A stretch of DNA of 64,000 bases from Carboxylicivirga fragile. Lineage in GTDB: Bacteria > Bacteroidota > Bacteroidia > Bacteroidales > Marinilabiliaceae. The stretch spans positions 1 through 64,000 of the forward strand of contig JAFMVD010000007.1 in assembly GCA_025499625.1 (NCBI GenBank), read 5' to 3'. Each line of letters opens with the position of its first letter. Position 1 is the first letter of the stretch. Position numbers and translations under genes: made by a program. The notes under the pieces were generated by a model. The model was not told the origin of the DNA. It ran no database searches and was given only the letters and a program-made list of their open reading frames with translations. Of the stretch, positions 15,201 through 59,522 are shown one piece after another.

Positions 15201-16301
15201 ACAGTTAACATCACTAAAAGGCAAGCTACTTTTGTCGCTTAGCACATGTCGGTAATGTGGAAATTTATGTATACTCTCGTGATAGTAACTTAGCCCATTT
15301 TTATAGGTCCCCACCCACACTATGTTATTGTTATCAAGGTACAGGTCAGTAATTGTATTTTGCGCAATACTTTTTTGATTATCCTCCTGGTGGTAAATAT
15401 GCTTCACTTCATTAGTATACTTATTAATCACATCAATCCCACCATGGTCGGTTCCTACCCATATCAGACCTTTATCATCCTGAATGATTTTTCGAATCAA
15501 ATCACTCGTCAAGGCGATCTTTTTACTATTAATTGAATAATGATTCCATTCTAATGCATTTTTATCATAGTGATAAACACCTTTATTGTTGCCATAGAAC
15601 CATATATCACTATCATAATCAATACACATCTTAACATTCAAACTGTCAGAACCCAGTTTACCGCATAAATAATCATCCTGATAATTTAATTCAAAATTTG
15701 AATCACTATAGCACTCAATCACACCATCATTAAAAAGACAATAATAGGCATCATTAACATGCATAAAGTCCAGGATAATCCTGTTACGAACCGACCCTTC
15801 TGGAAAAAGTGATAAGCACTGCTTTATTTCAGCATCCCACTTTTTATAATGCAATTGATCGTATTCTAAAATCCATAGTTGTTTACCCTTATCACAATAT
15901 ATTTCTGAAATATTTAAATGTGAAGCACCTTGCCCCAGATACTCATTTACATTATTGTAAAGCACCTCTTTATTAGTATCCAAAACCGTATAACCCCAAG
16001 TGGTTTTAATCCATATACCACCTCTTGCATCCTCCTGAATGGTCAGAATATAGTTATCTATTAAGGAAGTAGTATCAGCAGGATTGTGTTTATAATTAAC
16101 AAATGAACTTCCATCAAAACGACTTAATCCGGCCACTGTACCAACCCAGATAAAGCCACGTGTATCCTTATGAATGCAAGTCACCTGATTATTAACCAAG
16201 CCATTGGTATTGTTAACCTGTAGAAAAGAATATTGTTTTTGGGCTCTACCTGTAAAAGCTAAAGCCATCAAAATAACTACAAACAATAGCTGTTTTTTCA
16301 T
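12213..16301 (-). CDS. hybrid two-component system regulator (HTCS), xyloglucan locus
   Basis: One polypeptide of about 1362 residues holds a whole two-component system. The start at MKKQLLFV gives a proper signal peptide; an upstream Met 9 codons earlier does not. The order is: periplasmic propeller of Reg_prop repeats (GFIWVGT, LWIGT and the like) to about 720, Y_Y_Y domain to about 800, membrane helix about 805-827, HisKA with NVSHEFRTPLTLI (His near 865), HATPase (NLLSNALKF, DNGVGI, GSGIGLNL), receiver with phospho-Asp in ISDVMMP (near 1157), and AraC-type HTH at the end. HTCS proteins bind an oligosaccharide directly outside and activate the linked susC/D operon. It lies inside the operon it probably controls. 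Confidence 0.95.
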   Translation of the reverse strand: MKKQLLFVVILMALAFTGRAQKQYSFLQVNNTNGLVNNQVTCIHKDTRGFIWVGTVAGLSRFDGSSFVNYKHNPADTTSLIDNYILTIQEDARGGIWIKTTWGYTVLDTNKEVLYNNVNEYLGQGASHLNISEIYCDKGKQLWILEYDQLHYKKWDAEIKQCLSLFPEGSVRNRIILDFMHVNDAYYCLFNDGVIECYSDSNFELNYQDDYLCGKLGSDSLNVKMCIDYDSDIWFYGNNKGVYHYDKNALEWNHYSINSKKIALTSDLIRKIIQDDKGLIWVGTDHGGIDVINKYTNEVKHIYHQEDNQKSIAQNTITDLYLDNNNIVWVGTYKNGLSYYHESIHKFPHYRHVLSDKSSLPFSDVNCFVEDEKGNLWIGTNGGGLIYFNRNTNTFKSYKYDRIDPNSLSSNVVVSLFIDSYGELWIGTYAGGLNRFNGTSFKRYQHGSLSAHGLSNNNIWSILEDNNKQLYIGSLGGGIDVYDRKSDSFAPLPNRGEKELLSVFINQIIKLSNGNLFIATADGVTFYDVNEKRYKNHPDDYATKAYPIGHKTVYDVFEDSRGLLWTATREGLYVFNPNTNFFKYFTEADGIPHDIINCIKEDLSNKIWISKSTGLSQIIVNEYAPQSDYTFWVYDYTEEDGLQGKEFNPNASYLTSKNELIFGGPNGFNLFDPRNVKYNKKLPKVVITDFQIYNQSISPSSKVRNNKLLEKSIESTEKITIKHTMNVISIDFAALDFFIPEKTRYKYKLEGFNEEWLLLENTHKVTYTNLNAGDYYFKVKAANNDGLWNDEYTQLHIKVLPPFYATPLAYFLYVLCIILIIIYFRYSMLRKERIKFEVEQERFQAKRNHEMDEMKLRFLTNVSHEFRTPLTLILTPLHKLLDQKKGGEDKKLLKVIDRNAKQLLGLVNQLLDFRKLELHGLKYNPSYGNLVVFLDEVIRSFEEEFTKKNIEFIFSHSLDKLMLNFDKDKLMKVIMNLLSNALKFTPENGKVTLVLKADELKQLVQISVSDNGVGIKKDDKDKVFTRFYQSENNKKLGISGSGIGLNLALEMVQLHKGTIRFESEEGKGATFIVELPIIKQAEEKVAVKDSSNDNEAIMKSELPETSTKPTLMLVEDNIDFRTFMKETLAGMFEVYEAADGKIASELVYDVVPDLIISDVMMPNVDGLELCKMLRNDIRTSHIPFILLTARTADEDKIKGLEIGADDYITKPFNMDLLMLRVNKLLEKRSKQQKQFQKTIEIDPGEVKITSMDEKLIKKAIDLVNKNIGESSFSVEDFSQELGMSRVYLYKKMTSLTGKSPIEFIRIIRLKRGAQLLEKSQMNISEVAYEVGFNSPRLFSKYFKNEYGMLPNVYVKVKQKKKA

Positions 16302-16363
16302 TTGAAACCTGGTTAGAACTTGAAACATTTAATAAGGGACGTTAAAGCCATCCCTTTAAAATA

Positions 16364-32160: not shown

Positions 32161-32271
32161 CAAATCTATTAGTGAAGCCTCCGAGTGTCATTAACAATTG
32201 TTAACAGTGACTACAGGAATGATAACAGCACCCTCAATAATGATAACTAATCAAGCATCAAATGTTAACAA
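32161..32271 (-). promoter_or_regulatory. susC promoter with four phased direct repeats (candidate HTCS operator)
   Basis: The minus-strand -7 box TAGATTTG lies at 32161-32168, a full match to the Bacteroidota TAnnTTTG consensus. Upstream on the plus strand are ATTGTTAAC (32197), AATGATAAC (32218), AATGATAAC (32239) and AATGTTAAC (32261), spaced 21, 21 and 22 bp, that is two helical turns each. No good -33 box is visible, as expected for an activator-dependent promoter. Bases 32272-32393 show nothing further. Confidence 0.65.
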
Positions 32272-44698: not shown

Positions 44699-44755
44699 CA
44701 AAAGTAACTTCAGGATGCAACTATTGAGAGGACAATCGTTTTTATAAGGAGGATA
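44699..44755 (-). promoter_or_regulatory. promoter of GH43-GH51-GH43 unit with tandem repeats (candidate arabinan HTCS operator)
   Basis: The minus-strand -7 box TACTTTTG is at 44699-44706. On the plus strand GAGGACA (44728-44734) and GAGGATA (44749-44755) are direct repeats 21 bp apart, the first starting 22 bp beyond the box. A further GGACAA lies at 44761. The same layout appears before three other arabinan units. Confidence 0.6.
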
Positions 44756-44849
44756 GATGTGGACAACACCTTACCATAAGCACGAAACCATTATATATCA
44801 GCAAATAAGCACAAGTTTTGCACACGCTTTAAGATAGAGAATTACCCAT

Positions 44850-47800
44850 TTATACACTTACATATTCACTTGGAGAGCATTTATAAAACTTTTTAAAGAC
44901 ACGGCTAAAATACTTTGGATCGTTAAAACCAACCATTACCGCCACCTCGGCCACCTGATATTTTTTCGATTTGAGCAGAGGAATTGATTTTTTTAGCCGT
45001 GAAACATTAATGTATTCATTGGGCGATACATTGGTTAAAGCCTTTAGCTTTTTGTACAACAAACTACGGCTAACAAACATTTTAGATGCAAATGTCTCGA
45101 TATCGAAAGTTGGATCGGCGTAGAATTCCGATACCACATGATTGACCTTCTGCATAAAATCTTCGTCTAGTGTACTGCCTTTTAAATCGGCTTCAGCGTC
45201 GGTGTTTTGAAGATAAATAGCCTTTAGCTTTTGCCTGTTGTCAATCAAACTTCTGATTTTTGCCTCTAAAAATGCGAAACTAAACGGCTTAGTGATGTAA
45301 TCATCTGCGCCAACACCCAATCCTTCCAATTGATTTTCTTCCATTCCTTTAGCCGACAATAAAACTATCGGCATATGGCTAGTATTCAGATTATTCTTTA
45401 ACTGTTTACACAAATCCAGCCCATTCAGGCGAGGCATCATAATATCACTAACCACCAAATCGACTTCTTTCTGCAGAGCCAGTTCAGAACCTTCCTGTCC
45501 ATCTTTTGCAGCAATAACATGATAGTTTTCGGCAAGCGACTCCGTAAGGAATTGCCTTAAATCATCATTGTCTTCAACAATTAATACATGGGCTTTATCG
45601 GCATCGTTAACTGGCTGATTACTTCCTTGATTGGCAGCCTCTTTTATCAAATTCACTTTTTGATTCAAGGTAACGGAATCTGCAACTCCCTCTTCTACAA
45701 TTGTGTAATCATCAAAACTTTCTTTTTCAATCGGTAAGATCAGTTTGAAGCTGGCCCCTTTACCGTACTCACTGCTAAGATTAATTTGCCCATTCAATTT
45801 AATCACTAATTCTTTTACCAACGACAAACCAATACCGGTACCAAAGCCCAGGTTATTATCAGCCCGGTAAAAGCGATCAAATACTTTTTCCTGTATTTCC
45901 GGCTTAATACCCTGGCCATTATCCGTTACAATTACCTCTATGATTTTTTGGGATTCACTGTTTTTTTCCAGATTTAAAGACAGTTCGACTTTACCCGACT
46001 CTGACGAATATTTGAAAGCATTGGCCAGCAGGTTGAACAGAATATTCTCCAGTTTTGATTTGTCAAACCAGCCGAAATAATCCGCCTGACTCACATTTGT
46101 CAAGTATGTAATGTGCTTATCCTCAGCTAAGACTTTAAAAGCTTCACCTATCTCCACAATTACTTCATCCAGTTTTCCCTGCTGTAACTGCACCTGCAGT
46201 TTACCGGCTTCAAGTTTTCGAAATGTTAAAATCTGATTGGTCAGAAGTAACAAACGTTCCGCATTGCGCTTCACAATTTTAATGGTTTTTTGGGCGGCTT
46301 CCGGCAGTTGATTATTCCCTGAACTTAACAAACGCTGAATGGGAGAAATAATCAATGTCAATGGGGTTCTGAATTCGTGCGAAATATTGGTAAAAAACTG
46401 CATGCGCATTTGATGAATACTTTCCACCTCCTCATTCAGCGCAATTAACTGGTCTCGTTGTGTTCGAATCTCACTATTTTGTTCTTCCAGCTGTGCTTTT
46501 TGCTTTTCAATTTTTGCACTTCGCTTCTCTAACTGTTCATTCGTATCAAGCAAGCGCTGTGAACTGACTTCTAACTGCTGGTTTTTTTCATTGATTTCAA
46601 TCGTCCGTTCCTTCACTAATTGTTCCAGCCTTTTGTTTTGCATCGACATTCTGAACGAACGATAACGGATGTAGCCTGCCATCATAAGTACTGCTATCAG
46701 AATCATCAGCAACTTAAACCACAATTCTTGCCAGAAAGGGGGAATAATTTCGATATACACCTGAGTAAACTCATCGTTCCAGACCCCTTCATCGTTGGTT
46801 GATTTCAGTTCGAACAAATACACTCCTCCGGCCAGGTTGGTATACGAAGCCACCCGTCGTTTCGAATCGACATTAACCCATTCTTTATCAACACCATCTA
46901 AGCGATAGGCGTATTTTATTTTGGATGAATGAAGAAAATCCATTGCCGAAAACTCCAATGAAAACACATTATCCTTGTGCGATAATGAAATGGTATCGAC
47001 AGCAAATGAGGCTCTGTGCAAGGGAGTAACTCCATTGTGCACATCGCCGGGAACAACCTTTTTATTATAAATTTTAAGTGCGGTTACAATCGGTTTAGTT
47101 TCAAAAGGAAATTTTTTAATCCGATCAGGATCGAAGTAATTCAGTCCATTTAAACCTCCAACATATAAATTACTATCGGCATCTTTAAATCCGGCCGACC
47201 AATAATACTGGTTGTTTCTTAAATTATCCTGCTTGTAATAATTGATAAAATGTTGCGCTTCAATATTAAATTTTGACAAGCCATTTTCGGTGGTTATCCA
47301 CAAATTGTTGTTATCGTCGCAAAGAAGCGAATAAACAATATTGTTAGCCAATCCGTCTTGCTGATTAAAGTTTATAAATTCGTAGTTACCATTTTCTGTT
47401 TCAACGCATTTGGCAATTCCTCCTCCATAAGTACCAATCCAAATGGTTCCTTCAGCATCGATATTTAAGGTGGTTATGTAATTATCCGGCAGGCTGTTTT
47501 TCTCATTCGTTTCTTTATACCAAACCTGTTCATAGCGCGAAATAACTGTCGGTTCATCATCTTTAATAAGCTTACCATTGAAGCGATGCAAGCCATCGGT
47601 GGTTCCTACCCAATAGAAACCATTCTTATCTTCCTGAATACACCCTACCTCCCAGTTTTCAATGGCACCACCACCGGCAGGCTGAATACTGTAAAAGCGG
47701 TCATCTTTCTCATTATAAATACACAAGCCTCCTTGCGTACCAACGAGCACTTCACCTTTTTTGTTAACATAGAAAGTGGAAATAAAGTCACTTGGTAAGC

Positions 47801-49136
47801 CTTTATCGATATGATACGATACAAACCGTTCACCCTTCCCTTTTCTCAACATTTGAACACCCATGCCCCACGTACCTACCCAAATATTGCTTCGTCTATC
47901 TTCGTAAATGCAGGTTATAAAGTTGCTTTCGATCGAATTAGGGTCATTTATCCTGTTTTGATAAAATTTTAATTGACTATCTTTTTGATTAATGCGGGCC
48001 AATCCATTACCTGCTGTTCCTACCCAAAGCGACTGCTCATTCTTATAAATTGAGTTAATAATGCTCCGGTTTAGAACGGAGTAATCAGAATCAAAACCAT
48101 CAAGAGCGTTAAATGCCTTTTTGTGAATATTATAATAGACCAATCCAACTTTATCGGTACCTACCCAAACATCGCCCTGGTTATCGGTAAAAATAGAACG
48201 GATGAACTCCACATGAACATCTTCGTTTGTATAATTAGGCAGATGAAACCGATTGACCTGATTATCATCCAGATTAAGAGAACACAAGCCTCCCAGTGTA
48301 CCAATAATCAGCTCATTATTAACTTTTGTAATGGCGGTTACATTGGAATGATATAAAGAATTGATATTACTACCATCATGATTTAACCATTCAATAACGC
48401 CTGCTTGCTTTTTATATAGAAACAAACCATTATTGGTTCCAATATACAGGTTGTTTGCATCGTCCAATAAACATTGGATATACGCCGGATTATAAGTGCT
48501 ATCATTATACTGATAGGCGTTAAACTTATCCGAAATCGGATCGTGTATCATTAGCCCAGCTACTGTCCCAAGAAAAATAGCGTTATCCACCCCTTTGTAA
48601 ATACATAAGGGCGATGAAGCGTTCTCAAAGGATTGATAACGTCCTTTTACTTCAATTCCTTCCTTTGTTTCCTGCAGCTTATAAACCCCGTTTACTTTGG
48701 TTACAAGCCAGAGGTTTTCCCCATCGTGCAAGGTTTGAACAATATCCTGATTGAACAACAAGTGAATATTAGCCTGCTCAATTTTTAGAAACTTCCCCGA
48801 TAACAGATTTAATATTTGCAGTCCCTTCTGGGTGGTCACATATAGTAAATCCTGATGGTTGGTCGATAAATGCAAAATCCGATTATCCAACAGCTGATCT
48901 TCATCCCCATTTGAATAATAGTAATCAAAACCATATCCATCGTACCGGCATAAGCCATTATCAGTTCCAAACCAAATGAATCCAAACGCATCTTTTGTTA
49001 TGGACTGCACGGTATTTTGAGGCAAACCATCGTCTATGTTAATGTATTCAACACGCGGGGTTCTTTGGCTATATCCCTCAAAAGGCACCAAAAACAAAAG
49101 AAGAAAAACAACGATGGGTAACGGATGATTTTTCAT
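44850..49136 (-). CDS. hybrid two-component system regulator (HTCS), arabinan locus
   Basis: About 1428 residues from MKNHPLPIV, which gives a proper signal peptide (an ATG 7 codons earlier does not). The order is: Reg_prop propeller (FIWFGTDNGL, VWVGT, IWIGTYGGG) to about 720, Y_Y_Y domain, membrane helix near 800-825, then a coiled coil of about 85 residues (heptads of Leu/Gln/Glu) not present in the other HTCS, HisKA with NISHEFRTP (His near 920), HATPase (NLLANAFKY, DNGQGI, GTGIGLSL), receiver (Asp in VVSDIMMP near 1232) and AraC HTH. By position it senses arabino-oligosaccharides and activates the surrounding arabinan units. Confidence 0.95.
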   Translation of the reverse strand: MKNHPLPIVVFLLLFLVPFEGYSQRTPRVEYINIDDGLPQNTVQSITKDAFGFIWFGTDNGLCRYDGYGFDYYYSNGDEDQLLDNRILHLSTNHQDLLYVTTQKGLQILNLLSGKFLKIEQANIHLLFNQDIVQTLHDGENLWLVTKVNGVYKLQETKEGIEVKGRYQSFENASSPLCIYKGVDNAIFLGTVAGLMIHDPISDKFNAYQYNDSTYNPAYIQCLLDDANNLYIGTNNGLFLYKKQAGVIEWLNHDGSNINSLYHSNVTAITKVNNELIIGTLGGLCSLNLDDNQVNRFHLPNYTNEDVHVEFIRSIFTDNQGDVWVGTDKVGLVYYNIHKKAFNALDGFDSDYSVLNRSIINSIYKNEQSLWVGTAGNGLARINQKDSQLKFYQNRINDPNSIESNFITCIYEDRRSNIWVGTWGMGVQMLRKGKGERFVSYHIDKGLPSDFISTFYVNKKGEVLVGTQGGLCIYNEKDDRFYSIQPAGGGAIENWEVGCIQEDKNGFYWVGTTDGLHRFNGKLIKDDEPTVISRYEQVWYKETNEKNSLPDNYITTLNIDAEGTIWIGTYGGGIAKCVETENGNYEFINFNQQDGLANNIVYSLLCDDNNNLWITTENGLSKFNIEAQHFINYYKQDNLRNNQYYWSAGFKDADSNLYVGGLNGLNYFDPDRIKKFPFETKPIVTALKIYNKKVVPGDVHNGVTPLHRASFAVDTISLSHKDNVFSLEFSAMDFLHSSKIKYAYRLDGVDKEWVNVDSKRRVASYTNLAGGVYLFELKSTNDEGVWNDEFTQVYIEIIPPFWQELWFKLLMILIAVLMMAGYIRYRSFRMSMQNKRLEQLVKERTIEINEKNQQLEVSSQRLLDTNEQLEKRSAKIEKQKAQLEEQNSEIRTQRDQLIALNEEVESIHQMRMQFFTNISHEFRTPLTLIISPIQRLLSSGNNQLPEAAQKTIKIVKRNAERLLLLTNQILTFRKLEAGKLQVQLQQGKLDEVIVEIGEAFKVLAEDKHITYLTNVSQADYFGWFDKSKLENILFNLLANAFKYSSESGKVELSLNLEKNSESQKIIEVIVTDNGQGIKPEIQEKVFDRFYRADNNLGFGTGIGLSLVKELVIKLNGQINLSSEYGKGASFKLILPIEKESFDDYTIVEEGVADSVTLNQKVNLIKEAANQGSNQPVNDADKAHVLIVEDNDDLRQFLTESLAENYHVIAAKDGQEGSELALQKEVDLVVSDIMMPRLNGLDLCKQLKNNLNTSHMPIVLLSAKGMEENQLEGLGVGADDYITKPFSFAFLEAKIRSLIDNRQKLKAIYLQNTDAEADLKGSTLDEDFMQKVNHVVSEFYADPTFDIETFASKMFVSRSLLYKKLKALTNVSPNEYINVSRLKKSIPLLKSKKYQVAEVAVMVGFNDPKYFSRVFKKFYKCSPSEYVSV

Positions 49137-49242
49137 AAACAGCTTTAAATATAACAAAACAATGCTAAGGTATAGTTCTGATTTGGGCTGATATTAATTG
49201 AATATCAAACAATACACAAATATATATATAGCTCGTAATAAA

Positions 49243-49276
49243 AAAAAAGAAGGCTGCCAAAACAACCTTCTTTTTT
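49243..49276 (-). terminator. rho-independent terminator after galM
   Basis: An 11-bp stem AAAAAAGAAGG/CCTTCTTTTTT with a 12-base loop and a long T-run on the minus strand. It stands 18 bp after the galM stop and ends the GH43-galM unit, separating it from the regulator gene downstream. Confidence 0.85.
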
Positions 49277-49294
49277 AAACAAACTATATACTAA

Positions 49295-50416
49295 CTACTC
49301 AGTTCTGAATGCATAAACACACACCGAATAATACGCTTCTCCCGGGTTTAAAAGCGTCGATGGGAAATTTGGTTTATTGGGTGTATCCGGAAAATGCTGC
49401 GTCTCCAAACACAGAGCCTCACGGTACTTTAAGGTTTTACCGTATTTGCCCATATACTTGCCGTCCATAAAATTACCACCATAAAACTGAATACCGGGTT
49501 CGTTGGTATAAACATCCATCACTCGCCCCGAAACAGGCTCTTTTAAAGTGGCCGCCAGGGTTAAGCCATTGCCTGACGCATTTAACACCCAGTTATGATC
49601 ATAGCCTCCTCCTCTTTTCAGCTGTTCGTCATCAGCATTCACACGCGCACCAATTGTTGTAGCTTCTCTAAAATCAAATGGTGTGCCTTCAACTGTTGCT
49701 ATTTCACCGGTGGGAATCAAACCTCCATCAACAGGCGTGTAGGCATCTGCATTTATCGTTAGCAAATGATCATTTATCGTGCCTGAGGCTTCGCCCGCCA
49801 AATTGAAATAGGTATGATTGGTTAAGTTAACATGAGTAGGCTTATCTGTTGAAGCAAAATATTCAATTTTAAGCTCATTATTGTCTGTTAGTTCATAAAA
49901 GACTTTAACATCCAGATTACCCGGATAACCTTCTTCGCCATCAACAGAGGTATAGTTTAATTCCAGTTTATTATCGCCCACTTGAACGGCCTCCCACACC
50001 CGGTCGAAAAAACCGGCTGGACCGCCATGTAAAGTGTTCTCACCATCGTTAACACTCAACTGAAATGTATCTTTCTCAATAACAAACTGACTATTGGCAA
50101 TGCGATTGCCATACCTGCCAATCAAGGCTCCATAAAAGGTTTCAGGATTATTAAGGTACTCATCAGCCGTCTTATAGCCCAGACTTACATCGGCAAAATT
50201 GCCATTTTTATCAGGCACCCATAGGTTTACAATACGACCTCCCAAATTGGTAATTTGAGTTATCATGCCGTTTTTGTTCTTAAGGGTATACAACTTAACC
50301 TCCTTACCGTTGAAAGAAGTCGAAAAAGTAGTTTCATCAATTAATTTTATCTGGCTTGTAGGTTGGCTGCATGACACTAGAATCATGGCGATAACAAATA
50401 GGTTTACAAATTTCAT
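49295..50416 (-). CDS. galM: aldose 1-epimerase (secreted lipoprotein)
   Basis: 373 residues, lipoprotein (VSC, then SQPTSQ with no acid run, so probably periplasmic). The galactose-mutarotase fold shows GRYGNRIANSQF, the catalytic-His segments NTLHGGP and LTNHTYFNL, and the late PGIQFYGGN with the catalytic Glu nearby (CLETQHFPD). It interconverts sugar anomers. Downstream of an arabinanase gene by 12 bp, it would equilibrate arabinose released in the periplasm and so speed uptake. Substrate may equally be galactose; a secreted form is common in Bacteroidota sugar loci. Confidence 0.93.
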   Translation of the reverse strand: MKFVNLFVIAMILVSCSQPTSQIKLIDETTFSTSFNGKEVKLYTLKNKNGMITQITNLGGRIVNLWVPDKNGNFADVSLGYKTADEYLNNPETFYGALIGRYGNRIANSQFVIEKDTFQLSVNDGENTLHGGPAGFFDRVWEAVQVGDNKLELNYTSVDGEEGYPGNLDVKVFYELTDNNELKIEYFASTDKPTHVNLTNHTYFNLAGEASGTINDHLLTINADAYTPVDGGLIPTGEIATVEGTPFDFREATTIGARVNADDEQLKRGGGYDHNWVLNASGNGLTLAATLKEPVSGRVMDVYTNEPGIQFYGGNFMDGKYMGKYGKTLKYREALCLETQHFPDTPNKPNFPSTLLNPGEAYYSVCVYAFRTE

Positions 50417-50428
50417 AGATAGTTGGAT

Positions 50429-52045
50429 TTAATCAATTTTTTTGCCCCATAACGAATGCTTGCGATCTTGTGTAAGACCTGAAATTACAATTGTTACCTC
50501 TCTTGGCGAAGCTTCCCAGTCAAGCTCACGCTCAACACATAGTTTTACGGTGCCAATAGTCAATATTTCATTTGCACTGTCGTACGACCATGAACCACTA
50601 AGCGCACCAACTGCCGTACCGTCTTCTTTTAAAACAATCGCATTAGAAGTTTGCATGTTTGCATAATCGTATTTGAGCTCAATACACTCCCAGGTACCAA
50701 TTAATTCGTCCTCAGTAATCTCCTTCTCTGGCACACCTGTGTAGCGTTCCGGCATCACAACCGGCCAACCATCTTCAGTCCAGGCAATTTTTCGAACGTG
50801 TCCCATCATATTGGCATTGGCATATTCATTGCCATTGGTGCCACCAGGCAGACGAGCCTGAGAAGCGTAAAACCAATCACCGTTTTCATTTTGAAAAACA
50901 GCATTATGCGCAAAACCAACCCATCCTGAATGGCTGTTAAACTTATAAGGATGTGTAAGAACCGGATAACAATCTGCCCCTTCTGTTACATTTGCGCCAT
51001 CACTGCCATAATAGGGACCTTCGATGGATGTGGCACGACAAACACGCGTATTGTATGGCACATCTAATCCGTCGTAGGCTAAAAACAAATAATAGTAACC
51101 AGTTTCTTCGTTATAAAGGATTTCAGGCCCCTCAGATCCCTGCCAGCGACTCCAATACCCACTAGCTACGCGTGTAGCAATGCGTTTTGTTTTATCTGCC
51201 ACATTAACATATTCGAACGGTTTCCCTGTTGCGGGGTCTAACTCAACACATGCTATACCCGAATGCCATGAACCATAAATCAGGTATTGCTTGCCGTCAG
51301 GTGTTTCCTGAAAAGTCGGGTCAATGGCATTGTAATAAAAATAAGCATTGCCCCAATCGCCCCCAAATGAAGAACGCGACCATTCTGTTCCTTTATCGGA
51401 CACTGAATGAATTACCATTCCTTTATCTTCCCATTCATTGAGTGCCAAATCAGATGTTTCCATCATTCCAATAAAAGCATGTTCGGACCAAGTGCCATCG
51501 AAATTAGCTTCATTACAAGGCAGACCATTACCAATATAGTTATCGATAATTATGCTGTAATACATTCTATATTTGTTCCCCACCTGACGTACAACCGGCG
51601 CCCAAAAACCGTAGCCTGGATTATCAATAGGTGCAAGCCCGTTAGTCGCACGTATATTGTTTAGCGTATCTTTAACCCAGGTCGGAGCATCATTCATGGT
51701 AGCATTTCTATATTCCCAATTCACCAAATCCTTAGATCGACGGTGGTGGAAATGACCATGCCCAGCGTGCTCATTACCAAATGAGGCATCTGTTGCATAC
51801 ATGTAATAATACCCACCATCGAACACTACAGAAGGATCATGTACGTTTGCTAAATTCCATTTAGATCTATCACTCCATGATGCTATATCATCTCCTGTCC
51901 ATGTATAATCATCATTATAAATGGGTATCACATACTCATCATCAGGTTCATCGGGCTTTGGATCCTCATCGACAATATCATCATCTTTACATCCATAAGC
52001 TATAAAAATCAATAGGCTTAAAAACCAGGAAAATTTACTTTTCAT
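50429..52045 (-). CDS. GH43 endo-alpha-1,5-L-arabinanase (surface lipoprotein)
   Basis: The start chosen is MKSKFSW, 18 codons inside the longest frame; it yields a lipoprotein signal (YGC). About 538 residues. The residues after the Cys are KDDDIVDEDPKPDEPDDE, a very strong acidic surface-export signal. The propeller has LANVHDPSVV, NAIDPTF and GSEGPEILY, the endo-arabinanase triad, and a C-terminal lipocalin-like domain from about 430 (LIGTWECIEL ... HSLWGKKID). It resembles the GH43 at 43199-44668 along its length, but the acidic leader suggests this copy is the outer-surface enzyme and the other the periplasmic one. Confidence 0.9.
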   Translation of the reverse strand: MKSKFSWFLSLLIFIAYGCKDDDIVDEDPKPDEPDDEYVIPIYNDDYTWTGDDIASWSDRSKWNLANVHDPSVVFDGGYYYMYATDASFGNEHAGHGHFHHRRSKDLVNWEYRNATMNDAPTWVKDTLNNIRATNGLAPIDNPGYGFWAPVVRQVGNKYRMYYSIIIDNYIGNGLPCNEANFDGTWSEHAFIGMMETSDLALNEWEDKGMVIHSVSDKGTEWSRSSFGGDWGNAYFYYNAIDPTFQETPDGKQYLIYGSWHSGIACVELDPATGKPFEYVNVADKTKRIATRVASGYWSRWQGSEGPEILYNEETGYYYLFLAYDGLDVPYNTRVCRATSIEGPYYGSDGANVTEGADCYPVLTHPYKFNSHSGWVGFAHNAVFQNENGDWFYASQARLPGGTNGNEYANANMMGHVRKIAWTEDGWPVVMPERYTGVPEKEITEDELIGTWECIELKYDYANMQTSNAIVLKEDGTAVGALSGSWSYDSANEILTIGTVKLCVERELDWEASPREVTIVISGLTQDRKHSLWGKKID

Positions 52046-52072
52046 ATTACAAAACTTAAAAATATTCAGATT

Positions 52073-52129
52073 CAAAATAAACGAATAAAAAAGCTTCACA
52101 GGTGGACAATATCACATTTATTGGAGATA
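52073..52129 (-). promoter_or_regulatory. promoter of GH43-galM unit with tandem repeats (candidate arabinan HTCS operator)
   Basis: The -7-like box TTATTTTG on the minus strand is at 52073-52080. On the plus strand GTGGACA (52102-52108) starts 22 bp beyond it, and a weaker GGAGATA (52123-52129) follows 21 bp later. A second TAnnTTTG match (TAATTTTG, 52175-52182) lies further upstream. Confidence 0.5.
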
Positions 52130-52208
52130 AATAGATAACTATCTAAACTTAATGTTGTCAACATAACTCATTTGCAAAATTAGTATTACATGCAATTTAA
52201 TCGCATAA

Positions 52209-52250
52209 AAAACTTCCTTATCAGCTTAAAAACACTGGTAAGGAAGTTTT
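52209..52250 (-). terminator. rho-independent terminator after susD of the arabinan locus
   Basis: A 16-bp stem (AAAACTTCCTTATCAG with CTGGTAAGGAAGTTTT, one G-T pair), loop of 10, then a T-run on the minus strand. It lies 22 bp past the SusD stop and separates the lipoprotein-susC-susD operon from the GH43-galM unit. Confidence 0.9.
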
Positions 52251-52271
52251 AAGATAAACCTAAATATAATC

Positions 52272-54113
52272 TTACTCTAAATTATAAACAGGACGCACTT
52301 TATATCCTTTTTCAAAGAATGTTGTACTATTATCTGAATTATTATTTGCTGAATTGCCCCTAAGATTCGGGTTAGTGTCAAGATTAACTTGCCATACAGG
52401 AAAATATTCATGACCTACTATATAATTATCATACGAAGAACCACTTGCATTATTAGAATTTAGCTCTTCCGTATCTACAATCACATACTCTTCCTGTTTT
52501 TCAACTCCATCCTCGACCCATGTATAAAGCTTCTTAGGTGCTAACTTATAATAAGCATGCTCTTTTATCTGTTGCATGCGGCTTGCATCGTAGAAAAATC
52601 CCCAACGAATTAAATCAGTTCCACGACCGTTTTCACAACCAAATTCTTTCGGACGTTCTACATTTGCAATTTGCTCAAAAAGAGCATCTGCTGTAGGAAA
52701 GTCTGTAATATTAAGATCTGGAAGGGCCACACGCTGACGAACCTCGTTTATATAGCTAATAGCAGTTTGTGTTGGTCCGTTTATTTCATTTTCACACTCA
52801 GCTGCACGTAGTAAAACATCGCTATATCGCATTAAGCGTAAATTAATTCCAGTTCTTAATCCTACAATAACATCATCAGATAAATCAGTTCTCGCATAAG
52901 TCCATTTAGCAATCGATATGCCACCCTGTGAAGTATTGGATCGAAAATTAACAACCCAATCATTATCTTTGTCGCCATTAATTCCATATAATGTGGACTT
53001 ATAAGCCATGTTGGTTCTAGGATCTCCTTCTGGATATGCCGCAGTAGAAACACCATTTATAGCATCATATTCTGCCTCATACGTCACTAAAGTCCAATAC
53101 AAACGCGGATCCAAAAATCCATCTGTACAGTTCTCTTTCTTATACAGGTTGTATAACCAGGGCGAAGCCGCACAGTCACCCCAACTACCTTTATCCTGGG
53201 GTGCATAGTTACTTTCTACTGCATGTCCTTGTGTTGCAGTAGGACTGATGTTCACTGGAGTCCACTCCTCATCAGTTCCACCCGTTCCAAGATCCATATA
53301 TTGAACTTCAAAAAGACTTTCAGAATTGTTCTCTGTATCTTCCCTGAAGTTATCACCAAAGTCTGCGGCCAAAGCATAATCTCCATACTGACCGGCAATA
53401 ATATCCTTCAATATTGTGTAAGCTTCACTATACTTCTGACGAAACATAAGTGTACGAGCCATATACCCAGCAGCCGCACCGGAAGTGGCACGACCTGAAG
53501 CCCATTCTCCACCTTCATTACGCGAAGGCAAAATTTTCATTGCCTCAGTAAAATCCACCTCTACTTTATTCAATACCGAATCCTGACTAGCAGAGGTTGC
53601 ATAAAGAGTGTTAATATCATTATAATCGTCATAATTAGTAATTAGCGGAACATCCTGATAAATGGTAGACAGATTATAGTAGGCTAAAGATCGTAAGAAA
53701 AGAGCCTGTCCCTTAATTTGATTATAAGATTCCTCTGACATCTTAACATCATCCACTTTTGACAATACAAAGTTTGTGCGGTTTACAACATGATAGTTAT
53801 CACGCCATGGCCACTCGGCCATAAAATAAGCGGATGTATGATTTAGGTTGTCTGCATCAATATACCATTGTTGTGATGAGTTCCAAACCTCATCGCCACG
53901 TACAGCATCTATAACATAACCAACACGGGCAAATGTACCTTCTAAACGAATACGATTGTAACATGCTATTATAGCTTCCTGAAGTTCTGACTCCGTATTA
54001 CCAAAATCGAAAGTAGTCTGACTGTTTGGGTTCACAACATTGAGCTTGTCATCACAGGCTGAAAATCCCGCAATGAGCAATAATATTAATAGTAATATAT
54101 TTAAACGTTTCAT
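52272..54113 (-). CDS. SusD/RagB-family glycan-binding lipoprotein, arabinan locus
   Basis: 613 residues, lipoprotein (FSAC, then DDKLNV). SusD marks: TESELQEAIIACYNRIRLEG, the helix QALFLRSLAYYNLSTIYQDVPL, the late ISYINEVRQRVALP and ERPKEFGCENGRGTDLIRWGFF. It forms the lid of the SusC barrel encoded 28 bp upstream. It is longer than the xyloglucan SusD by about 75 residues, mainly in the C-terminal third. Last gene of the operon, with a strong terminator behind it. Confidence 0.94.
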   Translation of the reverse strand: MKRLNILLLILLLIAGFSACDDKLNVVNPNSQTTFDFGNTESELQEAIIACYNRIRLEGTFARVGYVIDAVRGDEVWNSSQQWYIDADNLNHTSAYFMAEWPWRDNYHVVNRTNFVLSKVDDVKMSEESYNQIKGQALFLRSLAYYNLSTIYQDVPLITNYDDYNDINTLYATSASQDSVLNKVEVDFTEAMKILPSRNEGGEWASGRATSGAAAGYMARTLMFRQKYSEAYTILKDIIAGQYGDYALAADFGDNFREDTENNSESLFEVQYMDLGTGGTDEEWTPVNISPTATQGHAVESNYAPQDKGSWGDCAASPWLYNLYKKENCTDGFLDPRLYWTLVTYEAEYDAINGVSTAAYPEGDPRTNMAYKSTLYGINGDKDNDWVVNFRSNTSQGGISIAKWTYARTDLSDDVIVGLRTGINLRLMRYSDVLLRAAECENEINGPTQTAISYINEVRQRVALPDLNITDFPTADALFEQIANVERPKEFGCENGRGTDLIRWGFFYDASRMQQIKEHAYYKLAPKKLYTWVEDGVEKQEEYVIVDTEELNSNNASGSSYDNYIVGHEYFPVWQVNLDTNPNLRGNSANNNSDNSTTFFEKGYKVRPVYNLE

Positions 54114-54141
54114 ATTGTTTCTCTATTAAATCGATTAAAAT

Positions 54142-57100
54142 TTAGAATGACAGGTTTAATCCTAACATGAATGATCGTGGTTGTGGAAATGACGCATAAT
54201 TATACCCTGGTGTGAATGTGCCACCTGAAAAATCAACATTATACCCCTCATACTTTGTTATAGTAGCCAGGTTTTGACCTGATGCATATACACGAACCTT
54301 GCTAACTTTACCTTTAAACCAACGCTCAGGGAAATTATATCCTAATTGCACATTTGCAATTCGCAAATAGGATGCATCCTGAATGTATCTATCGCTGAAA
54401 TAATTATTTGTGGCATTAGCCGACTTATACTGCACGCGGGGCACATCGGTGTCAGTGTTGGTTGGCGTCCATGCATTTAACAGGCTAACGCCCTTATTAG
54501 TTGCCCCATAAGAATTCATCAATTCCCCTTGAACAAAATCAACCGCTTTAAAACCGGCAGCCCCAAAAGCGGCAATATTTAAATCAAAACCATTCCATTC
54601 AACACGACCATTTAAACCGAAATTAATATCAGGCAATCCACTCCCAATAAAAGTTCTGTCCTCAGCATTAATTGTACCATCACCATTAAGGTCTTTGTAT
54701 AAAATATCACCTGGTTGAGCTCCCGGTTGGTCAACAAAGGATCCCTCCTCATTGACTCTGTTATCTATTGCACTTTGATTTTGGGCAATACCATTTCTGA
54801 TGTTATACGTACCATCATCATTCTGCACGTCACCTTCAAGCACCCAGCCATAAAACTCCCCAACTTCACGACCAACCTCTGTGCGACAAACACCATTATT
54901 TTGAGGCTCATTAGCCACGCCTAACTTAGTTACCTTATTTGATAGCGTTGATAGGTTTGCAGAAACCTCAAATTTAACAGGGTGGTTATAATTACGATAG
55001 GTAAAAAGGAATTCAAGACCTGAGTTTACCATAGTGGCTGCATTCATTTTCACTCTCTCATTAGTAAAACCAGCTTCAGTCGGAACCCTAACATCATAAT
55101 GTAAGTCTTCTGAAGTTGACTCATACCAGTCGAAATTAAATTCAAACTGATTGTTAAACATAGCTAAATCAAGACCAAAATCAAGTGTTTTCTTAATTTC
55201 CCATCTTAATCCGGTATTTACAAAATTCGATATTGCGGATCCGGTCACCTTATTATTATTAAAGCTGTAAGTATAATCGTTTCTGCGCATTGTATCCATA
55301 TAATCGTATGGTCCAAGATTCTCTATACTACCAAGTTCACCATAACTACCTCGTAACTTCAGTAAGCTGATAGTAGACTTATCTACAGGAAAAAAATTCT
55401 CTCGTTCGATACGCCAACCTGCAGATACTGATGGAAAAATATCAAAGCGATCTTCCGGAGACAAACGACTAGAACCATCACGTCGTGCTGTTGCTGAAAT
55501 CAGGTATTTACCGTCGAAATTATAGTTTAAACGACCGATGTACGATGACATCCTCCAATCGCTTTCATAACTATACGAATTTCTCTCGGCTGCATTGTCA
55601 AGCTGCAAATAATAGGGTTCAGACAAATTATTGCCAGTACCTCTAAGCGAGTGATAATATACACTCTGATAGGTTTGCCCTAAAACAACATCAATACTGT
55701 GTTTATTAAATGTAGTATTATAGTTAATATAATTCTCTATTAACACATCACTTGTAGAACGATATTCTTGGTTAAGAACCTCATTTTCCTTTGGCAAGTA
55801 GTTAATGGTACTTGAGATAAATGCAGGTATAAATGAATAATTTTTAACTATGGTTTTGTTATACGCTAGATTTAGATTGTATGTCAATTTGTGATTACTA
55901 GTATTAACACCTAACATATCCAATAAATCAAAACTTGTATTGGCAGAACCAACAAAACGGTCAACTTTTACATTTCTTTCCAATAAATTATTCGTCATCA
56001 ACACATTGGTCATACGCAGGTCGCCATGCACATCATCGTAATAAGTACCATAACCGTAAGCATCATATTTCCATCCTGATGCTGAAGAAAGTCTGTCATC
56101 CAATACCCATGTTGATTCATCGTAAGCTTTGATGGTAGAAGGCAAAAGCAGAGTGGAAGCCATTACTGGATACTGACCGCCATAAAGGCCTTGTACATAC
56201 TCGTTTGCGTTACTAAGCGCCATATTATCCTGATCACTGTGACTATAAACCAAGCTGGTTCGGATTTTAATGAATTTCACATCCATGGTATTGTTAACAC
56301 GGACAGTGAAACGTTCGTAATTCGGACCGGCACCTTTCATTGTTCCTTCCTGACTAAAATAATCAAGTCCAATATTGTAGGTATTATTTTCTCCGCCACC
56401 TGAAAGGTTCACGTTGTGGTTTTGACGAATACCGTTTTTATACACCTCATCAAACCAATCTGTGTCTACTGAAGGTACCTCAGTACCATCGTCAAGCGTA
56501 TCCCACAAATAATTGCTACTGGAAGAAACATAACCACCCGGCAGATCCACACCACTGTTTGCGTAAGCCATGCCAAGGTAATCCTTGTATTGATCCGCAT
56601 TCATAACATTATAAACTCCTTTTTGCACCTGGTCCACACCAACATATCCATTGTAGTCAATCTTCATTGGTGAGTTTTTCTTGCCTTGCTTAGTAGTAAT
56701 AATTATTACTCCATTACCAGCACGAGAACCATAGATAGCTGCTGCTGATGCATCCTTAAGGATCTGAATTGATTCGATATCATTTGGTGAGAAGTCTCGA
56801 ATTGTCGTTCCCATTGGCACCCCATCTATAACATAAAGTGGGTTTGTATTGCCAAAAGAACCAATACCCCTAATACGCACTGTAGGGTCAGCTCCCGGTT
56901 GCCCGTCAGAAGTTATTTGAACACCTGATGCTTTTCCCTGCAGTAATGTTGAGATGTTGGAATTCGACTGCTTTCGCATCTCTTCCGGATTTACAATCGA
57001 AACTGAACCTGTAAGGTCGGCCTTCTTTTGAGTGCCATAACCAATTACAACTACCTGATCAAGCTCTTGTGTGTCTGAAATCAAGGTTATTACACCAAGA

Positions 57101-57405
57101 TTAGTCTTTCCTTCAATAGCAATCTCCATGCTTTTGAAACCTATGAAAGACACTGATAGCTTAGCGTCTTCAGGTGCAGAAAGGGCAAAGTTACCATCCA
57201 AATCAGTAATCATTCCTTGGGTTGTACCTTTAATTGCTATAGTTACACCGGGAATCGGATCTCCCATATCGTCAACTATTTTACCACTCACTATTATATC
57301 TCCTTGTTGAGCCATTGACATTTGGTAGGTGTCGATGCCACCTACTGCCAATGTTACTGGCGCAAACACCAACAATCCTAAAAGAATTAAATATATATTT
57401 TTCAT
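54142..57405 (-). CDS. SusC/RagA TonB-dependent transporter, arabinan locus
   Basis: 1087 residues with a signal peptide. A carboxypeptidase-like domain (DIIVSGKIVDDMGDPIPGV to about residue 120) precedes the plug with LDQVVVIGYGTQKK and VRIRGIGSFGNTNPLYVIDG, then the barrel ending RSFMLGLNLSF. It imports arabino-oligosaccharides with the SusD lid. The gene starts 20 bp after the lipoprotein gene, so susC is the second gene, not the first, of its operon. Confidence 0.95.
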   Translation of the reverse strand: MKNIYLILLGLLVFAPVTLAVGGIDTYQMSMAQQGDIIVSGKIVDDMGDPIPGVTIAIKGTTQGMITDLDGNFALSAPEDAKLSVSFIGFKSMEIAIEGKTNLGVITLISDTQELDQVVVIGYGTQKKADLTGSVSIVNPEEMRKQSNSNISTLLQGKASGVQITSDGQPGADPTVRIRGIGSFGNTNPLYVIDGVPMGTTIRDFSPNDIESIQILKDASAAAIYGSRAGNGVIIITTKQGKKNSPMKIDYNGYVGVDQVQKGVYNVMNADQYKDYLGMAYANSGVDLPGGYVSSSSNYLWDTLDDGTEVPSVDTDWFDEVYKNGIRQNHNVNLSGGGENNTYNIGLDYFSQEGTMKGAGPNYERFTVRVNNTMDVKFIKIRTSLVYSHSDQDNMALSNANEYVQGLYGGQYPVMASTLLLPSTIKAYDESTWVLDDRLSSASGWKYDAYGYGTYYDDVHGDLRMTNVLMTNNLLERNVKVDRFVGSANTSFDLLDMLGVNTSNHKLTYNLNLAYNKTIVKNYSFIPAFISSTINYLPKENEVLNQEYRSTSDVLIENYINYNTTFNKHSIDVVLGQTYQSVYYHSLRGTGNNLSEPYYLQLDNAAERNSYSYESDWRMSSYIGRLNYNFDGKYLISATARRDGSSRLSPEDRFDIFPSVSAGWRIERENFFPVDKSTISLLKLRGSYGELGSIENLGPYDYMDTMRRNDYTYSFNNNKVTGSAISNFVNTGLRWEIKKTLDFGLDLAMFNNQFEFNFDWYESTSEDLHYDVRVPTEAGFTNERVKMNAATMVNSGLEFLFTYRNYNHPVKFEVSANLSTLSNKVTKLGVANEPQNNGVCRTEVGREVGEFYGWVLEGDVQNDDGTYNIRNGIAQNQSAIDNRVNEEGSFVDQPGAQPGDILYKDLNGDGTINAEDRTFIGSGLPDINFGLNGRVEWNGFDLNIAAFGAAGFKAVDFVQGELMNSYGATNKGVSLLNAWTPTNTDTDVPRVQYKSANATNNYFSDRYIQDASYLRIANVQLGYNFPERWFKGKVSKVRVYASGQNLATITKYEGYNVDFSGGTFTPGYNYASFPQPRSFMLGLNLSF

Positions 57406-57425
57406 AGTTTGATTTTTTCTCTTAA

Positions 57426-59126
57426 TTATTCTGTAATTACAACATATGAACCTTCTAATACTATTGCACAGTTCAAATCAGAGCTATCAACTGTTACACC
57501 TTCATACTTTTGGAAATGTGTTTCTCCTGTGGCATAAGTAACATCGTAATTAATATCAGCAGTATTATCACCGTTATTGGTCACTGTGATAACCACTTTT
57601 GAACCGTTAATATTAGATGTGAATGTATCAAAATTCCAGTCATTTGTAATCGTGGCTGTTCCATAACCGTCACCCCATCCGAAACTGTCCATACGTACTA
57701 CACCATACTCAGTTGCATCGGCCTTACGCAAAATCGTACATGGGCTATGCCAATTATTAACTTCATTGGAGTAACAGTACATAGTAAGAACTTTACTGGA
57801 ACCTGATGCTACGGTGTAATCATCGGAAAACTCGGTCCACCAAGCGGTAGTGAAGTCAATTGCACCTATCTGACTAGTACCTTCAATAATAGTTAGTGGG
57901 CAAGTTGTGGTTACAGTGCTTGTGGCGCCAACATAAGAAATCACTGCATCTTGATCTCCATCAACTAAAGGAATTTCAAATTCAAGAATTGAATTATCAA
58001 GAATTCCTGTCGAGCCATCTGAATAAGTAGCTGTTACAACCATACCCTTAGGATCAAATGATGGGGATTCAGAACCAAAAAAAGCATAAGTGGTCATTTC
58101 CGGTAAAGCAGTTACTTCCATAGCAATAACAGAATTCGTTACTTCCAGTGTGTAAAATGTCGATACTGCAGGACCGTAATCACCTAGTTTGGTTTTGCTA
58201 TAAGCAACCGAAACTGTCTTTTCTCCGAGAGTGGTCATATCCGGTATCACATTGAATGACACATCTGCAGTATCCACTATAGAAGAAGAACCATCTGCAA
58301 AAGTAACAGTGGCTACTCCATCCCCCCAAAAATCTTCATTACCTAATTCAACAGCAAGTGGAGTTCCTGTAACATCAATCGACACAGCATTAACATCTTC
58401 GACTACTGTCACTTTAGACGGTATAAGATATGCCCTTTCAATCTCAAAATAACTCGCATCAGCTATTAAGAATGCCGTAATATCATCAGATGCTGAAACA
58501 GGTTGCTGATAGGTCATAACCAATTCTGTACCATTTGTCCCAATAGCAGTTGCAGTCACAAAAACATTGCCGGTAGCGGAGTGGTCAACATCAATCGAAA
58601 CAAAAGCCCCATCCATGGTTAAACGGAAATCATTCCAAATATCTCCATCTCCATCCGTATCTGGATAGTTATTACTAATAATATCTAAATCAAAATCTTC
58701 GTTACCCCAACCAAAAGCATCAGAGCGGAGCACAAAATATTCGGCATAGCCATCACCTTCACGATCTGCCACCTCATTGGCAACAGCAAGATTCCAGTTA
58801 TTCCAGGCGTTTGGACTACCTCCATTGTGGTTAATAAATTCCAAATGCAATAATTTATTTGTCGGAACGGTAAAATAATCTGAGAATGCCGTCCACCAAC
58901 CAGAACTGTAATCATCATTCCCAACAACTGCTGTAGTGATATCAATATAGGTTGTATCACCAGTGTCAATACCTTCCTTCGCGTCTGCAATCGAATCAAT
59001 CCTTGCCTGCAGGTCAGAGGGTGCATTAATAGTATATATCCTCGACTCTTCGCAACCAACTAATCCAATTGCTGTTAAAAAGGCTATGTACAAAACGTAC
59101 CCAATAAGCCTGTTTTTAATTTTCAT
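57426..59126 (-). CDS. surface lipoprotein with duplicated carbohydrate-binding-like domains around Ig-like domains
   Basis: The start chosen is MKIKNRL (566 residues); an ATG 7 codons earlier is possible. Lipobox VGC, then EES. Two related modules are visible: near residues 70-230 (SGWWTAFSDYFTVP ... WNNWNLAV ... RSDAFGWGN) and 425-566 (TAWWTEFSDDYTVA ... NNWHSPCTI ... RMDSFGWGD). Between them are two bacterial Ig-like (Big_3-type) domains, each with a TVTFADGSS/TATYSDGST strand. No catalytic motif is seen. Its place first in the susC/D operon suggests a surface arabinan-binding protein. I know no named family for the WW...FGWG module. Confidence 0.8.
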   Translation of the reverse strand: MKIKNRLIGYVLYIAFLTAIGLVGCEESRIYTINAPSDLQARIDSIADAKEGIDTGDTTYIDITTAVVGNDDYSSGWWTAFSDYFTVPTNKLLHLEFINHNGGSPNAWNNWNLAVANEVADREGDGYAEYFVLRSDAFGWGNEDFDLDIISNNYPDTDGDGDIWNDFRLTMDGAFVSIDVDHSATGNVFVTATAIGTNGTELVMTYQQPVSASDDITAFLIADASYFEIERAYLIPSKVTVVEDVNAVSIDVTGTPLAVELGNEDFWGDGVATVTFADGSSSIVDTADVSFNVIPDMTTLGEKTVSVAYSKTKLGDYGPAVSTFYTLEVTNSVIAMEVTALPEMTTYAFFGSESPSFDPKGMVVTATYSDGSTGILDNSILEFEIPLVDGDQDAVISYVGATSTVTTTCPLTIIEGTSQIGAIDFTTAWWTEFSDDYTVASGSSKVLTMYCYSNEVNNWHSPCTILRKADATEYGVVRMDSFGWGDGYGTATITNDWNFDTFTSNINGSKVVITVTNNGDNTADINYDVTYATGETHFQKYEGVTVDSSDLNCAIVLEGSYVVITE

Positions 59127-59312
59127 TTCCTTAGATTTAATTAACAATAAACATCTCGTTTTTTTAACTGCATTTTTTATCTCAAATTCGAATCAAGTCA
59201 ATATTATAATCAAATGCTCTTGATTTAAGCCTTCAAAAACTTCAATTAATAAGAACTTTACTTTTTAAGATATTTTTCATCTATACATCGAATTTGTTTC
59301 AAAATGTTAAAT

Positions 59313-59369
59313 CAAAAGTACAATCCAACGATTGCGACAAGGTTCATTAATGTTTTTTTTTGGTGGATA
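59313..59369 (-). promoter_or_regulatory. promoter of lipoprotein-susC-susD operon (candidate arabinan HTCS operator)
   Basis: The minus-strand -7 box TACTTTTG (59313-59320) is identical to that before the GH43-GH51 unit. GTGGATA at 59363-59369 lies exactly where the second repeat should be (43 bp from the box); the first position (59342-59348, GTTCATT) is degenerate. The leader would be about 180 bases. Confidence 0.5.
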
Positions 59370-59465
59370 ATTGAGGATGTCCAATTAGAAAACCTCTCAT
59401 CACTTGTAATAATAAACAAATCTAGCTTTTGAAAGGTGCACAAATGATAACAATGTGTATCATTT

Positions 59466-59522
59466 TATCCTCCTAAAGAATGAATTTGTGCTCCTGCAAA
59501 TAAGAAATAGTTTTCAAATTTG
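59466..59522 (+). promoter_or_regulatory. promoter of GH127-GH97 unit with tandem repeats (candidate arabinan HTCS operator)
   Basis: Read on the minus strand, GAGCACA (59487-59493) and GAGGATA (59466-59472) are 21 bp apart. On the plus strand CAAATTTG (59515-59522), one base off TAnnTTTG, stands at the same distance as the -7 boxes of the other arabinan units. The leader would be about 190 bases. The rest of the divergent region (59148-59717) holds an 8-bp-arm inverted repeat at 59442-59465 and no gene. Confidence 0.5.

Follow-up and report, generated by a model that had tools for sequence, protein, structure and literature searches.

Escherichia coli AraC, which binds at I1 and I2, two half-sites in direct orientation that are spaced by about 21 bp and adjoin the -35 element, shares an AraC-type DNA-binding domain (PF12833) with the regulator considered here, although the former is a soluble arabinose-binding protein and the latter a membrane-bound hybrid kinase. 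In Bacteroides, direct repeats averaging 21 bp were predicted for 16 regulators of the hybrid two-component system (HTCS) class, with words that differ between paralogues (Ravcheev 2013, PMC3878776). As described there, these operators pair two conserved sites as direct repeats with a spacing of about 21 bp, and are located before operons of a polysaccharide utilization locus (PUL) beside the HTCS gene and conserved before orthologous operons. SusR-type regulators also control PULs of Bacteroidetes through direct-repeat sites, but theirs are 67 or 77 bp apart (PMC3878776) instead of the 21 bp found here. For arabinan, the Bacteroides thetaiotaomicron HTCS BT0366 is reported to shift the BT0365 promoter and the BT0366-0367 region in electrophoretic mobility shift assays (PMC5061871, whose Figure S3 marks predicted BT0366 sites), and chromatin immunoprecipitation sequencing together with expression data confined its activation to its own PUL (PMC3404733). 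Here we describe four paired 21-bp repeats before the arabinan genes of Carboxylicivirga fragile, in a stretch of 64,000 nucleotides at the start of contig JAFMVD010000007.1 (the window), and assess whether they are operators of the arabinan HTCS encoded among them, as a first-pass annotation made from the sequence alone had proposed.

The locus resembles that of BT0366 (HTCS_Ara-1), where the HTCS gene also lies beside susCD, GH43 and GH51 and induction is confined to its own PUL; it differs in its GH127 unit, none being named in the available description of the Bacteroides system. Compared with the operators of Ravcheev 2013, those predicted here come from another part of the phylum, the gap to the -7-like box was measured and is fixed at 21 nt, and the motif reaches beyond Bacteroides. 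The elements of the predicted promoters and the regulator are as follows, with heptamers written in the direction of transcription.

44728..44755, minus strand: P1 predicted operator, TATCCTC (44755-44749) and TGTCCTC (44734-44728), before GH43b-GH51-GH43a
44699..44706, minus strand: P1 -7-like box TACTTTTG, 21 nt downstream of the operator
52102..52129, minus strand: P2 predicted operator, TATCTCC (52129-52123) and TGTCCAC (52108-52102), before GH43c-epimerase
52073..52080, minus strand: P2 -7-like box TTATTTTG, matching TAnnTTTG at 5 of 6 positions
59342..59369, minus strand: P3 predicted operator, TATCCAC (59369-59363) and AATGAAC (59348-59342), before the 57426-59147 gene, susC and susD
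59313..59320, minus strand: P3 -7-like box TACTTTTG
59466..59493, plus strand: P4 predicted operator, TATCCTC (59466-59472) and TGTGCTC (59487-59493), before GH127, in mirror orientation
59515..59522, plus strand: P4 -7-like box CAAATTTG, matching TAnnTTTG at 5 of 6 positions
44850-49157, minus strand: arabinan HTCS (1435 aa; Pfam matches to propeller, Y_Y_Y, HisKA, HATPase_c, receiver and AraC-type helix-turn-helix)
44853..45194, minus strand: DNA-binding domain of the HTCS; its second helix-turn-helix contains GFNDPKYFSR

All four pairs were found where the first-pass annotation had placed them, its P4 coordinates being the low ends of the minus-strand words, and the half that it had called degenerate at 59342 reads AATGAAC, the divergent half of P3. 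The two heptamers lie exactly 21 bp apart in P1, P2, P3 and P4, and the gap between the downstream heptamer and the -7-like box is 21 nt in the four promoters, so that both the spacing and the fixed box distance that had been claimed hold. This also applies to the mirror arrangement proposed for the divergent GH127 unit, since P4 lies on the plus strand with equal lag and gap. The flanks, said to agree as well, do so nearly but not fully when read by hand: a G precedes 6 of the 8 half-sites and an A or T follows 7 of them. The position of the P2 pair and its box upstream of GH43c depends on the gene starting at ATG 52045; the open reading frame had been listed from GTG 52099, whereas the relatives agree with ATG 52045. 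As a separate observation, the P4 operator is bordered at window positions 59442-59465 by an inverted repeat, AAATGATA n8 TATCATTT, which might be a site for another regulator.

Chance was first addressed within the window with a half-site matrix derived from 12 pairs of relatives and none from the window itself. The best four pairs at lag 21 were the P1-P4 sites (23.3, 22.4, 18.4 and 18.3 bits; fifth, 14.2). To weaken descent as an explanation, the matrix was then rebuilt leaving out each promoter type in turn, and the omitted site still ranked 14 (P1), 6 (P2), 5 (P3) and 2 (P4) among 127,938 lag-21 pairs. A 63-column sequence model, R1, made from 13 sites of relatives, was also run over the whole genome to which the window belongs (5.6 Mb in 140 contigs). 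Among its 43 matches at E ≤ 10, the four sites occupied the first four ranks, in the order P1 (E 1.6e-8), P3 (4.0e-7), P4 (3.9e-4) and P2 (7.8e-4), the fifth match having an E of 0.08; in the window, with filters off, they scored 37.3, 32.7, 23.3 and 22.3 bits and the next match 11.2. The motif is thus confined to the arabinan PUL in its own genome.

In close relatives, the P1 pair was kept in the five regions compared (L009, L010, L109, L111 and L113), with a -7 box 21 nt away. The P2 pair was kept in three of four (L009, L010 and L113), with TTTCTAC or TCTCTAC as the upstream half, and was not found in the 110 nt before the L041 gene. The P3 pair was kept in three of three, as TATCCAC/AATGAAC in L009 and AGTCCAC/TGTGAAC in L010 and L041, its divergent half being conserved as AATGAAC or TGTGAAC. 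The upstream half of P2 and the downstream half of P3 are therefore cases where the divergent form is itself conserved.

The spacing also stood out in more distant arabinan loci. When 90 loci outside the model were scanned, 39 pairs of at least 22 bits were obtained at lag 21, in 37 loci, against 0 to 2 at each of 18 other lags (13 to 31). The -7-like boxes located 5-39 nt downstream of lag-21 pairs (n=53) concentrated at one distance, 41 at 21 nt and 6 at 22 nt. Of 68 loci outside the matrix, 47 had a pair of at least 16 bits in the 750 nt preceding the susC operon; 16 other lags gave a mean of 0.94 loci and at most 3, and none of the 68 stretches taken within the operon had one. Enrichment of spaced pairs in orthologous arabinan loci had been set beforehand by the first-pass annotation as a test that could refute its proposal, and the 47 of 68 against at most 3 at other lags speaks in its favour. 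It should be considered that the loci are related and some overlap or are near-duplicate, so that these figures are counts rather than trials independent of one another; this leaves the contrast between lags untouched.

At E ≤ 0.01, R1 matched 38 times in the 88 loci searched, spread over 33 of them, one of which (L041, with two matches) was partly used to build the model. Of 90 matches, 65 were tabulated with their context, 25 weak or partial ones being left out: none of the 65 fell inside an open reading frame of at least 120 aa, and in 57 cases the gene that follows downstream has a homologue in the arabinan locus of the window. Over 393 genomes at the order level, with strict filters, 9 genomes including the own one had a match at E ≤ 0.001; because so few matched, R1 is a narrow model and not a gauge of how frequent the motif is in the order. 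Homologues of GH43, GH51, GH127 or SusC lie near the site in five of the eight other genomes (G004, G038, G095, G126 and G220); in the remaining ones (G167, G093 and G280), the surroundings of the G167 site are ambiguous, the G093 site adjoins a prolyl-tRNA synthetase gene and that of G280 is inside a 153-aa open reading frame adjoining a PKD protein. A further observation concerns locus L258, where three TGTCCACC words stand in tandem (2475-2552, minus strand), the steps being 21 bp and 19 bp, and a weaker word lies a further 21 bp upstream; this array sits between an HTCS gene and a GH51 homologue.

The window's HTCS carries the full domain set in one chain, propeller sensor, HisKA, HATPase_c, receiver and AraC-type helix-turn-helix (Pfam), and a pair of at least 16 bits was present within 700 bp of 34 of the 45 HTCS-class regulators outside the model. 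For those found through SusD the count is 31 of 32, one of the 32 (L078) being a 181-aa end fragment of uncertain class. The motif adjoins HTCS-type regulators in loci of Marinilabiliales, Bacteroidales and Cytophagales (Marinoscillum). The DNA-binding domain is of the AraC type (PF12833), and its signature aligns to the second helix-turn-helix of AraC (2k9s) and to a solved HTCS fragment (12aw). Among 68 regulator domains from the loci, 67 have G[FY]NDPKYF in this second helix-turn-helix, and in the own genome only 1 of 17 AraC-type domains, that of the arabinan HTCS, bears it. In a tree of these domains, whose deep branches are poorly supported, those linked to the operator are not recovered as one clade. 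Apart from this, the receiver of the HTCS (44850-49157) reads SHMP; an S/CHIP motif is reported to be conserved at the inhibitory contact between receiver and DNA-binding domain (PMC11253607).

We also considered GFNDPKYF as the sole predictor of a site, and rejected it, since 10 of 12 DNA-binding domains bearing it had no pair of at least 18 bits within about 1.5 kb to either side. A two-helix rule (S[RK]SLL in the first helix-turn-helix plus NDPKYF) looked better, but is a post hoc observation only.

Several results weigh against assigning the repeats to the HTCS and have to be set beside the above. The sites themselves are uneven: the upstream half of P2 is weak (2.9 bits with the half-site matrix from relatives), the downstream half of P3, AATGAAC, is off consensus, and P4 is the least conserved of the four, with one strong half-site only in L009, L010 and L109 among four regions; in L111 the P4 pair is present with a less clear -7 box. 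A pair was lacking at 16 bits in 21 of the 68 regions upstream of the susC operon, and of the 13 regulators found through the HTCS only 3 had one of at least 16 bits no farther than 700 bp away. A pair was near 2 of 12 DNA-binding domains with GFNDPKYF and 0 of 35 without it (Fisher p 0.06). A control with the reversed matrix was not clean, giving 12 pairs of at least 22 bits at lag 21 and 0-1 elsewhere, probably because the reversed word still contains TCCACCT, and other lags therefore serve as the control. Lastly, the likeness to BT0366 is one of gene content, identity of this motif with that of HTCS_Ara-1 being conjectural. Even so, the contrast between lags, the conservation and the proximity of the regulator support the assignment made by the first-pass annotation, and on this genomic evidence we estimate a probability of about 0.9 that the four pairs are operators of the arabinan HTCS at 44850-49157.

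A different protein might occupy the repeats, with the HTCS acting elsewhere, and the candidates are a Crp-like global activator and the NrtR-type AraR (39624-40316), whose gene adjoins the PUL. The AraR of B. thetaiotaomicron is reported to bind the BT0365 promoter (PMC4666351, PMC5061871), but descriptions of the AraR motif give a semipalindrome of 21 bp, not two direct repeats. Moreover, regulators of the HTCS type adjoin the motif across the three orders named above, and in Prevotella-type loci it adjoins a regulator with the same kind of sensor and an AraC-type DNA-binding domain, which, as far as motif form and gene context go, makes binding by AraR or a Crp-like protein unlikely. We regard as more improbable still that the repeats are an extended promoter element for RNA polymerase or an extracytoplasmic function sigma factor, with no activator site at all. 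The fixed distance of 21 nt to the -7 box would suit such an element; however, strong matches in the own genome occur only at the four arabinan promoters, and the susC gene of a xyloglucan locus in the same window has a different word at the same 21-bp lag.

Similarity without function, produced by descent of promoter DNA among relatives plus chance, would draw on the fact that the loci are homologous and that some records are overlapping or near-duplicate, which makes part of the conservation a matter of descent. Yet the four promoters are non-orthologous to each other and still mutually predictive, and lag 21 is unique among the 19 lags in distant loci; we give this explanation scarcely any credence.

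If the repeats are HTCS operators, a mechanism can be proposed from known HTCSs and the AraC family, from which the ligand, the phosphorylation, the dimer, the polymerase contact and the extent of the units are drawn by analogy. The periplasmic propeller of the HTCS would sense arabino-oligosaccharides, and the ligand-bound protein would phosphorylate its own receiver domain, which would free the two AraC-type DNA-binding domains of a membrane-anchored dimer. These domains may then bind head to tail on one face of the DNA, with each occupying a TRTCCACC-like half-site and two helical turns (21 bp) between them. With 21 nt separating the end of the downstream half from the -7 box, the bound HTCS would be expected to touch RNA polymerase at the -33 region. 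The four units switched on in this way would be GH43-GH51-GH43, GH43-epimerase, the divergent GH127, and susCD together with its accompanying gene. The paired-repeat arrangement is of a known type, and the motif reaches further than the first-pass annotation knew. The result is a concrete predicted operator for an arabinan sensor outside gut Bacteroides, and its fixed geometry (21 bp between half-sites and 21 nt to the -7 box) offers a means of predicting PUL regulons. Specialists may be surprised by how far the motif reaches and by the regulators without a kinase that adjoin it.

Such kinase-less regulators were encoded next to the operator in 17 Prevotella-type and rumen loci (L048, L049, L051, L054, L060-L062, L068, L070, L071, L074-L077, L083, L084 and L086), several of them being near-identical. 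They are 975-1022 aa long and consist of propeller, Y_Y_Y and AraC-type helix-turn-helix; the one in L061 belongs to Hallella seregens ATCC 51272 (Prevotellaceae). None of the 17 had a Pfam match to PF00512, PF02518 or PF00072 at E 0.001. When one pattern for the kinase H-box was applied to both groups, it was absent from the 17 and present in 42 of 42 full-length HTCSs with the signature. A transmembrane-like stretch appeared around residues 780-830 in 16 of the 17 (hydropathy scan), and a TRTCCACC-like pair lay within 700 bp of all of them. In the tree of DNA-binding domains, theirs join a group of HTCSs with a support of 0.999.

The protein of L070 was compared with 294 genomes, at most two candidates per genome being scored, and its six best matches, in five genomes, were sensors of full-length HTCS frames. 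In five of the six matched loci (L216 and L257-L261), an HTCS with GFNDPKYF had a lag-21 pair nearby, two of these pairs being weak (17.0 and 16.7 bits), and the sixth, L259, had GYNDSKYF and no pair; L216, in G220, had already emerged from the R1 site search. Read most simply, these comparisons point to regulators that shed kinase and receiver but retained sensor, DNA-binding domain and operator. We lean towards the view that one operator, the TRTCCACC 21-bp pair, is read under two signalling logics, by full HTCSs in many loci of the phylum and, in Prevotella-type and rumen species, by regulators devoid of kinase and receiver, in which propeller, transmembrane segment and AraC-type domain follow one another directly; the dimer of the membrane-anchored sensor, and not phosphorylation, would then set the arrangement of the DNA-binding domains, and ligand alone would switch the genes on in the latter. 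For most HTCSs, the receiver has been proposed to silence the DNA-binding domain (PMC11253607), and since their kinase-less relatives have no receiver, these regulators at the same operator provide a natural experiment for gauging the part that phosphorylation plays in HTCS control. Arabinan is reported to raise an arabinan susCD unit in Segatella copri (PMC11784079). Transmembrane transcription regulators (PMC10269533) likewise combine a DNA-binding domain and a membrane sensor in one chain, and the available text of that source makes no mention of AraC, a propeller or an operator shared with HTCSs. Among the open-access papers listed, we found no description of a kinase-less propeller-AraC regulator, of such regulators sharing an HTCS operator, or of the motif letters. 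Besides these loci, the own genome has a 989-aa frame with Y_Y_Y and an AraC-type domain (G000:C7:1147-3003), which is possibly another kinase-less regulator.

The window holds a second HTCS, a paralogue in the locus that the first-pass annotation assigned to xyloglucan, from which we take the name of the substrate.

12213..16328, minus strand: paralogous HTCS of the xyloglucan locus
32198..32269, minus strand: four GTTAWCAW copies before the xyloglucan susC, spaced 22, 21 and 21 bp

A simple -7 scan of the xyloglucan genes found nothing, and neither did a first search for repeats there; a further search revealed the GTTAWCAW copies. The lag is thus common to both sets of repeats and the word is different, which fits the earlier suggestion that paralogous HTCSs share architecture but not specificity, the site of the xyloglucan HTCS being putative. 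According to PMC3878776, this pattern is an already published rule for HTCSs.

The arabinan locus as a whole extends over 37975-62060 and encodes AraA, the NrtR-type AraR, two GH43, GH51, the HTCS, an epimerase, a third GH43, SusD, SusC, a 573-aa protein and the divergent GH127. From the spacing of the genes, GH43b-GH51-GH43a probably form a single transcription unit. The features not given above are the following.

39624-40316: NrtR-type AraR, adjoining the PUL (Pfam)
40610-41626, minus strand: GH43 (a), P1 unit, after GH51 (Pfam)
41646-43178, minus strand: GH51, P1 unit, after GH43 (b) (Pfam)
43199-44668, minus strand: GH43 (b), first gene of the P1 unit (Pfam)
49295-50416, minus strand: epimerase, P2 unit, after GH43 (c)
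50429-52045, minus strand: GH43 (c), P2 unit, start ATG 52045
52272-59147, minus strand: P3 unit, with the 573-aa protein, SusC and SusD
57426-59147, minus strand: gene of the 573-aa protein, first in the P3 unit
59718-62060, plus strand: GH127, P4 unit

The 573-aa protein of the P3 unit had no Pfam match. The nearest named SusD records were those of 'Marinilabiliaceae bacterium A049' and Carboxylicivirga linearis, both Marinilabiliaceae, at 87% each.

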